Below, in pieces: positions 47,115 through 48,668 of a stretch of 64,000 nucleotides of DNA. The position numbers and the translations under genes are program-made. Every line of letters starts with the position of its first letter. The stretch's first letter is position 1. The stretch comes from Candidatus Methylopumilus sp. (GTDB taxonomy: Bacteria > Pseudomonadota > Gammaproteobacteria > Burkholderiales > Methylophilaceae), in assembly GCA_026399645.1 (NCBI GenBank), contig JAPLQN010000059.1:1-64000 (forward strand), given 5' to 3'. The notes beneath the pieces were generated by a model. That model was not told where the DNA came from, did not search any database, and worked only from the letters and a program-made list of their open reading frames with translations.

Positions 47115-48668
47115 ATGTCTCTTGGCGAAGCAATCAGAAAAAGAAGGAAGTCTCTAGGGCTAACCTTGCAGGTCTTAGCAAAAAAAATTGCGAGCGATCC
47201 TGGGAATCTTTCTAGAATAGAAAGAGGCGAGCAAAATATCGGTGAGGTGCACTTATTAAAAATATGTGAAGCACTTAATTGCGCGCCCTCAAGTCTTTTT
47301 CAAAATAACGCTCCTGCAAACCCCATTCAAAAACTGGACAGCCAAACATTTGCAAGATGGTTTAGATTAGCAGCTCCGTACATCAACACCTTTAGCAATA
47401 AAACATTTGTCATCGCTTTCGGCGGTGAGCTTCTCGATGAAGATCAATTTACTGCACTCTCCCATGACATTAATTTATTAACATGCTTAAACGTCAAAAT
47501 TATCCTCGTTCATGGTGCAAGACCTCAAATTGATCAAAGACTTAAAGAGAAAAAAATTTCAACTCAACTTGTAAGAAATGTTCGAGTCACTGACGATTTA
47601 AGTATGGAAGCAGTTAAAGAAGCTAATGGCCTCATAAAGATCAATATTGAATCTACACTTTCATCAAGCCTTTTAAACTCGCCTATGGCAGGGAGTGATA
47701 TTAAAGTCTCTAGTGGAAATTTTATTACTGCAAAGCCTTTAGGTGTGATCGATGGTATCGACATGCAACATACAGGGGAAGTAAGAAAAATTGACAGCGC
47801 TGCCATCAAGAAAAAATTAGATAATAAAGAGTTGGTAGTGATCTCACCAATTGGATATTCACCTACAGGTGAAGTATTCAATCTCACGGTGGAAGATGTG
47901 GCACTCAAAACCTCTATCGCTTTAGAAGCGGATAAACTTATCCTTCTCATAGATTCTGATGGCATTTTTAATCTAAGGAATGAACTTCTTCACGAGATGA
48001 CGTTAGAAAAGGCAATTAACCTTTATAAAAGTATTTCAAAAAACTATCCAAAAAAACATGAGCTCATTAACATCAACTCAAATGACTTAGATCTTCTGGA
48101 GATTGCTATTAAAGCTTCTGAAGCAGGCATAAATAAAATTCATCTCATTAATAGGCATATCGATGGTGCGATTCTTCAAGAATTATTTACGGATGAAGGT
48201 GTAGGAACAGTTATTACCGAAAAAGCCCTTGACGCTATAAGGCCTGCTTCACATAACGACGTTAAAGGAATTCATAAGCTTATCAATCCTTTGGAGGCTG
48301 GGGGTTATCTTGTTAAAAGAGGTAAGGAAAGAATTGACCATGAGATAGAAAACTTTTTCGTGATCGAGCATGATAATAAAATTATCGGTTGTGCAGCTCT
48401 ATACCCTTATGACGAGCATGTTGAATTTGCATGTTTTGCTATTAACAAAAATTACCAATCTAAAGGTTTTGGCTCAAAACTATACAATTACTGCGAAGAA
48501 ATTGCGCAAGAGAAAAATTACAAATATCTCTTTGCCTTAACAACAAGAACTGAACATTGGTTTATTGAGAAGGGCTTTAAAGAAGAGAATATTCAAAAGC
48601 TTCCTAAAAAAAGAATAGAGTCTTATTTGCCACAAAGAAATTCAAAATTTTTTATTAAAAAGCTTTAA
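47115..48668 (+). CDS. argA: HTH (Cro/CI-type)-N-acetylglutamate synthase fusion protein
   Basis: One 517-residue frame. Residues 4-61 form a Cro/CI-type helix-turn-helix ([22 protein letters not shown], then [15 protein letters not shown] as the recognition helix). Residues 62-77 are a linker. From about 78 the protein is a complete ArgA: degenerate amino-acid-kinase domain starting [20 protein letters not shown] with AFGGELLDE near 101 and [11 protein letters not shown] near 130, then a GNAT domain (375-517) with acetyl-CoA loop QSKGFG (Q448, G451, G453) and [14 protein letters not shown]. No ATG, GTG or TTG lies in frame between the HTH and the conserved ArgA start, so the fusion is real if the base calls are right. 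It catalyses the first step of arginine synthesis and may bind DNA. argB follows by 28 nt. Confidence 0.93.

Follow-up and report, generated by a model that had tools for sequence, protein, structure and literature searches.

A Cro/CI-type DNA-binding domain fused to N-acetylglutamate synthase in Methylophilaceae: a putative trigger enzyme with paired palindromes at its own promoter

The window analysed here, a stretch of 64,000 nucleotides from Candidatus Methylopumilus sp. (contig JAPLQN010000059.1, positions 1 to 64,000), contains a gene that joins a Cro/CI-type helix-turn-helix (HTH) domain to an N-acetylglutamate synthase (NAGS, ArgA); the product is here called HTH-ArgA (Table 1). The gene is preceded by that of an RNA methyltransferase, which we take to be rsmE, and is followed by argB, probably in the same operon. 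The original prediction of a single 517-residue frame with an HTH in front of a full ArgA was confirmed by the open frame and by profile searches: Pfam places HTH_3 at residues 7-59 (E 7e-10, 39.2 bits against a cut-off of 23), AA_kinase at 96-313 and GNAT at 401-478, and the NCBIfam ArgA equivalog NF003641 spans residues 74-517 (E 2e-173, 577 bits against a cut-off of 344), the whole ArgA model being matched with both the amino acid kinase-like (AAK) and the acetyltransferase (GNAT) parts present. The HTH gives in addition a weak match (E 1e-5) to the benzoate-regulator model PRK08154, presumably of the BzdR kind; PF01316 (Arg_repressor) is absent from the protein in the Pfam search. HTH-ArgA is the sole ArgA found in the source genome, an assembly of 1.2 Mb in 98 contigs, where the second match of the ArgA search is the neighbouring ArgB.

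Table 1. Features of the HTH-argA locus in window coordinates
Feature	Position	Strand	Basis
rsmE-like RNA methyltransferase	46299..47045	+	Pfam, neighbourhood
Operator-like site 1, TTTTGCATAAAACGCAAAA, 17.6 bits, overlaps rsmE end	47036..47054	.	motif matrix
Candidate -10 box TAAAAT, overlaps first two bases of site 2	47083..47088	+	analogy with relatives
Operator-like site 2, ATATGTATTTTAAGCAAAT, 16.5 bits, 51 bp from site 1	47087..47105	.	motif matrix
HTH-ArgA fusion gene, 517 aa	47115..48668	+	ATG at 47115, stop ends at 48668, single open frame
Cro/CI-type HTH domain, residues 1-62	47115..47300	+	Pfam, structure model, conservation
Flexible linker, residues 63-75, pLDDT <50 at 65-74	47301..47339	+	alignment, model
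ArgA N-helix, residues 76-93, Y89 = gonococcal Tyr17	47340..47393	+	alignment, model, literature residues
Amino acid kinase-like domain with arginine site (K274, E356, motif 356-365)	47394..48224	+	Pfam, alignment
GNAT acetyltransferase domain (R402, E437, T476, R508, S510)	48225..48665	+	Pfam, alignment
argB, acetylglutamate kinase, 28 bp downstream of HTH-argA	48697..49581	+	NCBIfam

It had also been stated that no in-frame ATG, GTG or TTG lies between residue 50 and the ArgA start, and that separate translation of the enzyme is therefore not available. This is valid for the window and not as a rule of the family, since only 38 of 117 distinct fusion proteins are free of such codons between residues 50 and 82 (window numbering); in this region 13 ATG, 77 GTG and 54 TTG codons were found across the family.

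In the AlphaFold2 model of HTH-ArgA (mean pLDDT 84, pTM 0.69) the HTH is made of five helices (3-13, 18-25, 29-36, 44-53 and 58-63) and is followed by a poorly modelled linker, the N-helix of ArgA, the AAK and the GNAT domain. Arginine-free gonococcal NAGS (2r8v, TM by target 0.62) ranks first by E-value among solved folds; the same enzyme with CoA and arginine (3d2p), in second place, superposes better (TM by target 0.85). All three Pfam domains, HTH_3 (at E<=0.001), AA_kinase and GNAT, were detected in 25/25 diverse members, among which the linker measures 3-33 residues by alignment. Two members from the second streamlined genus (L129 and L131) have a linker of three residues by alignment, with the HTH and the N-helix almost directly joined, which makes them suitable for structural studies.

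The third HTH helix, which we take to be the recognition helix, corresponds to the region D28-G38 of the window protein. L32, S33 and E36 are invariant in the 25 diverse members and N31 (24/25), R34 (23/25) and I35 (24/25) nearly so, over an identity to the window protein that falls to 44% overall. Of these conserved residues N31 tells more, since the S-R-I-E stretch is a common trait of HTH_3 proteins in general. Within the genus (15 members), dN/dS is 0.08 in the HTH, 0.18 in the linker, 0.02 in the AAK and 0.04 in the GNAT domain, calculated on 105 pairs, of which 61-105 were usable, with synonymous sites near saturation; the HTH is under purifying selection and is less constrained than the enzyme part.

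In gonococcal NAGS the arginine site comprises Tyr17, Lys201, Glu270 and the motif ELFTxxGxGT, the N-terminal helices of adjacent subunits interlace, and arginine, lying beside the end of this helix, shifts it; the arginine-bound hexamer forms a ring about 10 A wider and about 20 A shorter along its axis (extracts of PMC4490483 and PMC3236213). The residues for catalysis and glutamate binding are R316, E353, S392, R425 and S427, according to an extract of PMC4490483 that prints the first of them once as R416 and once as Arg316. Equivalences were established by alignment to the gonococcal chain, whose numbering is the native one plus 20. Among the 25 diverse members K274 and E356 of the arginine site are invariant, Y89 is Tyr in 22 and Phe in three, and the window protein carries the motif E-(L/I)-(F/M)-(T/S)-x-x-G-x-G-T at 356-365; likewise R402, E437 and R508 are invariant and S510 nearly so. 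The position of gonococcal S392 is taken by Thr476, also invariant, and a Thr is found there in the Vibrio GNAT domain 3e0k as well. Judging from these alignments, the arginine-site and catalytic residues of HTH-ArgA are intact, consistent with an active enzyme, and the conserved arginine site makes coupling of arginine to the HTH plausible.

The fusion is widespread in the family. An ArgA match is present in 180 of 187 Methylophilaceae genomes and, among the matches listed, most start at residue 1-9 and reach the end of the protein within a single open frame. The fusion was read in 135 loci (117 distinct proteins), which were picked for a match reaching the HTH and some of which are the same genome under two names. 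HTH and ArgA are also both encoded in 22 out of 22 further loci where the BLAST match ended short of the HTH, in 21 of them in one frame; in L288 the two lie in different frames around a run of N. No HTH-less ArgA occurs among the family members with a readable N-terminus, a set that leaves out seven genomes without a match and roughly ten with partial or unlisted matches. In L137 and L140 (G028, 47% estimated completeness) ArgA is found in several pieces, which may reflect either the quality of the sequence or decay. An artefact of assembly, frameshift or gene calling, which the draft state of the 98-contig source genome might suggest, is refuted by the relatives and can hardly be entertained: the same frame is found in single-contig genomes (G081, G082, G083, G094 and G095) and in named isolates of four genera, Methylobacillus, Methylovorus, Methylophilus and Methylotenera. 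An architecture shared at the same place by close relatives, closed genomes included, is due neither to chance nor to a frameshift; thus, of the doubts raised with the original prediction, an assembly error or frameshift is excluded, and absence from close relatives is answered by the 135 loci and the 22 further N-termini.

Outside the family the picture is different. In a sample of 399 genomes of the order, 386 of them from other families, no match among those listed for these 386 starts before query residue 53. A profile covering the HTH and the N-helix was searched against 369 genomes sampled from the class (the source genome, three others of the order and 365 of other orders); among the matches listed only the source genome matches the HTH part, and the next one starts at profile position 39 and runs across stops. 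Nine of the best neighbours outside the family have 23-57 open-frame residues before the conserved FR, without an HTH. A tree of 44 ArgA parts separates the 25 fused from the 19 unfused sequences by one branch with a support of 100/100, so that a single gain is enough.

A palindrome of 17-19 bp with the core TGYA-N5-TRCA is present in all the HTH-argA promoters examined (135/135). A motif search on 86 promoters, dereplicated from 136 at <75% identity, with up to two sites allowed in each and symmetry imposed on the matrix, gave a 19 bp palindrome with an information of 15.1 bits; the same search on three shuffled sets gave 7.7-9.3 bits, without a dominant spacing. The best site of each argA promoter has a median of about 17 bits for the commonest helix type. 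A test matrix was trained on 71 promoters of other genera, and p values were taken against first-order Markov shuffles of each promoter. With the scan confined to the part upstream of the gene, all 22 promoters of the window genus reached p<=0.05 (20 of them p<=0.01), as did 22 of the 25 from the second streamlined genus (17 with p<=0.01); the unfused argA promoters gave 0/19. A second scan, with a threshold of 8 bits, carried the promoter window 22 bp into the gene (142 bp). The held-out promoters of the window genus were positive in 22/22 cases, all with two or more sites, and those of the second streamlined genus in 24/24, 20 of them with two or more, so that all 46 hold a site by a matrix derived from other genera; since the promoters are related by descent these counts are not independent, and the held-out loci reduce to 2 and 13 dereplicated promoters. 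At the same threshold sites were found in 89/89 promoters of the training genera (60 with two or more), a result that is partly by construction, in 0/19 unfused argA promoters and in 87 of 1720 shuffled promoter windows, one of which had two. Taken together, 102 of the 135 fused promoters have two or more sites. These palindromes, present at all the fused promoters and paired at most of them, are a new observation that goes beyond the original prediction.

Within the window alone the loose pattern is not above chance (6 matches with at most one mismatch vs 6.6 expected), and the case for operators rests on place and conservation. Across 15 promoters of the genus the mean conservation of the alignment columns reaches.986 in site 1 and.958 in site 2, compared with.887 between the sites and.830 from site 2 to the ATG; thus the sites are more conserved than the spacer, site 2 not being above the adjoining coding end of rsmE (.968). 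The window also contains a perfect palindrome with arms of 9+9 at 47073-47097, AAAATACAT-N7-ATGTATTTT, located between and overlapping the two sites and sharing half of site 2; it was considered as the operator and set aside in favour of the two-site motif, since it is altered in several members of the genus. A second site that extends across the start codon is frequent in the second streamlined genus; in the streamlined relatives L112-L115, L117 and L122-L128, where this is so, the first codons of the protein are part of the presumed operator. Three of these loci (L112, L113 and L115), where N31 of the recognition helix is changed to S, have promoters with one site each; a loss of the operator along with the altered helix was discarded, as the apparent loss came from cutting the promoters at the start codon, which the site straddles.

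The sites are regularly spaced. Among the 86 dereplicated promoters, 49 have a pair at 29-31 bp (42 at exactly 30 bp), two at 41-42 bp, eight at 50-52 bp and two at other distances, and 25 have a single site. Roughly one helical turn separates each of the three modes (30, about 41.5 and about 51 bp) from the next; the resultant for helical phasing is 0.955 at 10.5 bp, a figure inflated by inheritance, the three modes alone giving 0.951. In the 42 promoters with 30-bp pairs a TTG (.98, 1, 1) in site 1 opens a -35-like hexamer, and 17 bp past this hexamer a TAWWWT box (T.93, A.93, T.95) touches site 2. The two sites cover a sigma-70 core promoter, which is the layout of a repressor; part of site 1 would be conserved in any case if it is a -35 box. 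In the window no good -35 box is seen, and a promoter scan returned no promoter on the + strand.

The genes around the fusion differ in part from those of unfused argA. argB follows the gene within 600 bp in 104/138 of the fused loci that were informative and in 0/18 unfused ones, and rsmE is upstream in 95/132 fused and 17/19 unfused loci. The fusion and the sites, and seemingly the argA-argB pairing too, thus characterise Methylophilaceae, next to an rsmE-argA arrangement that is probably older, the unfused set being 19 genomes of the order.

Other possible targets were sought at arginine genes and by genome-wide pattern searches. The arginine loci scanned were those of argF and argC (32 loci of about 3.9 kb each, from 16 genomes); a site of at least 8 bits occurs in 3 of the 32, the best with 10.8 bits. 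In the source genome the strict single-site pattern has 5 matches vs 2 for the reversed-pattern control: one at HTH-argA, two in predicted frames and two between genes, these other four being at no arginine gene. In 17 relatives 123 matches, those at argA included, compare with 51 of the reversed control; two larger genomes stand out clearly, having 17 and 15 matches vs 2 control matches each. Forty-six non-argA matches were read: every one in G114 and G173, three in G001, two in G042 and, for most of the remaining genomes, the match listed first; 39 are in predicted frames and 7 between genes, and none is at an arginine gene recognisable by its N-terminus. As the matches of several genomes are above control, further targets are possible; from the distribution of the sites, the target of HTH-ArgA looks like its own operon. 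Accordingly, the earlier suggestion that the protein regulates its own operon or other arginine genes keeps its first half, for which paired sites, a conserved helix and the dN/dS of the HTH speak; the second half finds no support at the loci covered, with sites in 3/32 argF/argC loci vs 135/135 argA promoters and no recognisable arginine gene at the 46 matches read.

Two other places deserve mention. In L209 (1501-1630; G114 C1:769172-769301) three pattern matches share a stretch of 130 bp where a methyltransferase-like gene starts; 42 bp separate the first from the second, and this is the only non-argA cluster read that resembles a paired operator. An operator-like site is also found in two members of the genus (L190 1501 in G081; L173 1501 in the source genome, C63:7968) between divergent genes, which by eye look like a transaldolase and a phosphoenolpyruvate synthase.

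The interpretation that we favour, and consider probable, is that HTH-ArgA is a trigger enzyme: an arginine-inhibited NAGS that would also repress its own argA(-argB) promoter. As to the single parts, the protein very likely binds the sites at its own promoter, repression of its own gene is quite likely, and a modulation of DNA binding or repression by arginine is what we modestly lean towards. In the expected hexamer the HTH domains would be paired where the ArgA N-helices interlace; two HTHs at such a two-fold junction would fit one palindrome, and the HTH pairs could hold on to two palindromic operators that share one face of the DNA. With one operator at the -35 box and the other at the -10/start region, as in most relatives, RNA polymerase would be shut out. 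Arginine beside the N-helix would alter the hexamer and, as we infer, most likely tighten its grip on DNA, acting as a co-repressor. The hexamer ring has three junctions and could hold two phased palindromes together. More tentatively, and as a possibility that we place short of probable, one hexamer with its three HTH pairs may bridge both operators, a single arginine site setting both activity and occupancy: arginine would move the N-helices, re-space the HTH pairs and clamp the argAB promoter. The HTH is tied to the very helix that arginine moves in the gonococcal enzyme, in some relatives through the three-residue linker; since the linker is flexible and variable in length, a tight coupling of arginine to the HTH is uncertain, and it is the shortest linkers that would couple tightly.

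An alternative is that HTH-ArgA is a plain autorepressor, whose HTH sets the level of ArgA, arginine affecting the enzyme alone and not DNA binding. The paired sites at its own gene, with no such pair at the other arginine loci considered, agree with it, as does a linker that is flexible and variable in length; however, the residues of the arginine site are kept, the HTH is attached to the N-helix, whose gonococcal counterpart is displaced by arginine, and control at a fixed level would hardly need fusion to a sensor, so that we regard this explanation as unlikely. It could also be argued that the sites serve another XRE-type regulator and that the HTH of ArgA is a leftover or a module for protein contacts. 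TTGCAA-type palindromes are not specific to one regulator, and pattern matches exceed the control in some genomes; against this stand the near-invariant recognition helix and the purifying selection on the HTH even in a streamlined genus. Moreover, the sites occur in 135/135 fused vs 0/19 unfused promoters, so that sites and fusion share one distribution here, and we judge this second explanation highly improbable.

Trigger enzymes, the kind to which HTH-ArgA probably belongs, have known examples. BirA, NadR and PutA combine an enzyme and a DNA-binding domain in one chain and regulate their own pathway, as proposed for HTH-ArgA; they belong to other enzymes and pathways and, to our knowledge, none acts at the first step of arginine synthesis. 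Classical ArgA, as in N. gonorrhoeae (2r8v, 3d2p), has the same whole AAK and GNAT domains, with Y17/K201/E270 and the catalytic equivalents, but is without a DNA-binding domain (19 + 9 unfused relatives read). The nearest kind is a trigger enzyme or an enzyme-derived regulator, and the nearest layout is that of BzdR, where a Cro/CI-type HTH likewise precedes, via a linker, a metabolic enzyme fold (shikimate-kinase-like) and whose promoter holds three operator regions (extract of PMC3602430). BzdR is a sensor of benzoyl-CoA whose kinase-like part serves as an effector-binding domain, whereas in HTH-ArgA the catalytic residues of a biosynthetic enzyme are intact and the presumed target is its own biosynthetic gene. 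With ArgR the proposed HTH-ArgA would share arginine sensing, an (expected) hexameric form and paired palindromic boxes at the promoter; hexameric ArgR uses two ARG boxes (extract of PMC6245113). Conversely, HTH-ArgA is an unrelated protein, with sites that are mostly 29-31 bp apart and have been seen at a single operon.

In a search for ArgR, whose control found the protein in E. coli and others, the 187 family genomes yielded two matches, both below the cut-off. A loss of ArgR specific to the family was dismissed, as the 150 genomes of the order likewise gave a single match that fell short of it. ArgR is indeed reported absent from the classes of Proteobacteria other than gammaproteobacteria, on 196 genomes, in an extract of PMC5343134. 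No HTH-ArgA fusion was found in the open-access literature searched, most subscription journals and bioRxiv being outside its scope, in agreement with the earlier statement that no such regulator is described; a paper on genome streamlining in Methylophilaceae contains neither 'argA' nor 'transcriptional regulator' in its main text (PMC6794327).

The hypothesis can be tested with one protein and a DNA fragment of about 120 bp, and the family offers a natural series on how an allosteric enzyme may turn into a regulator, in which the linker ranges from 3 to 33 residues and the distance between the sites changes in steps of roughly full helical turns. If the bridging of both operators by one hexamer is true, HTH-ArgA would be a self-contained feedback device, where one conformational change brings about both inhibition and repression, and a substitute of the family's own making for the ArgR that is lacking in the sampled order. 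The fusion is thus a candidate arginine regulator for Methylophilaceae, including their abundant streamlined plankton.
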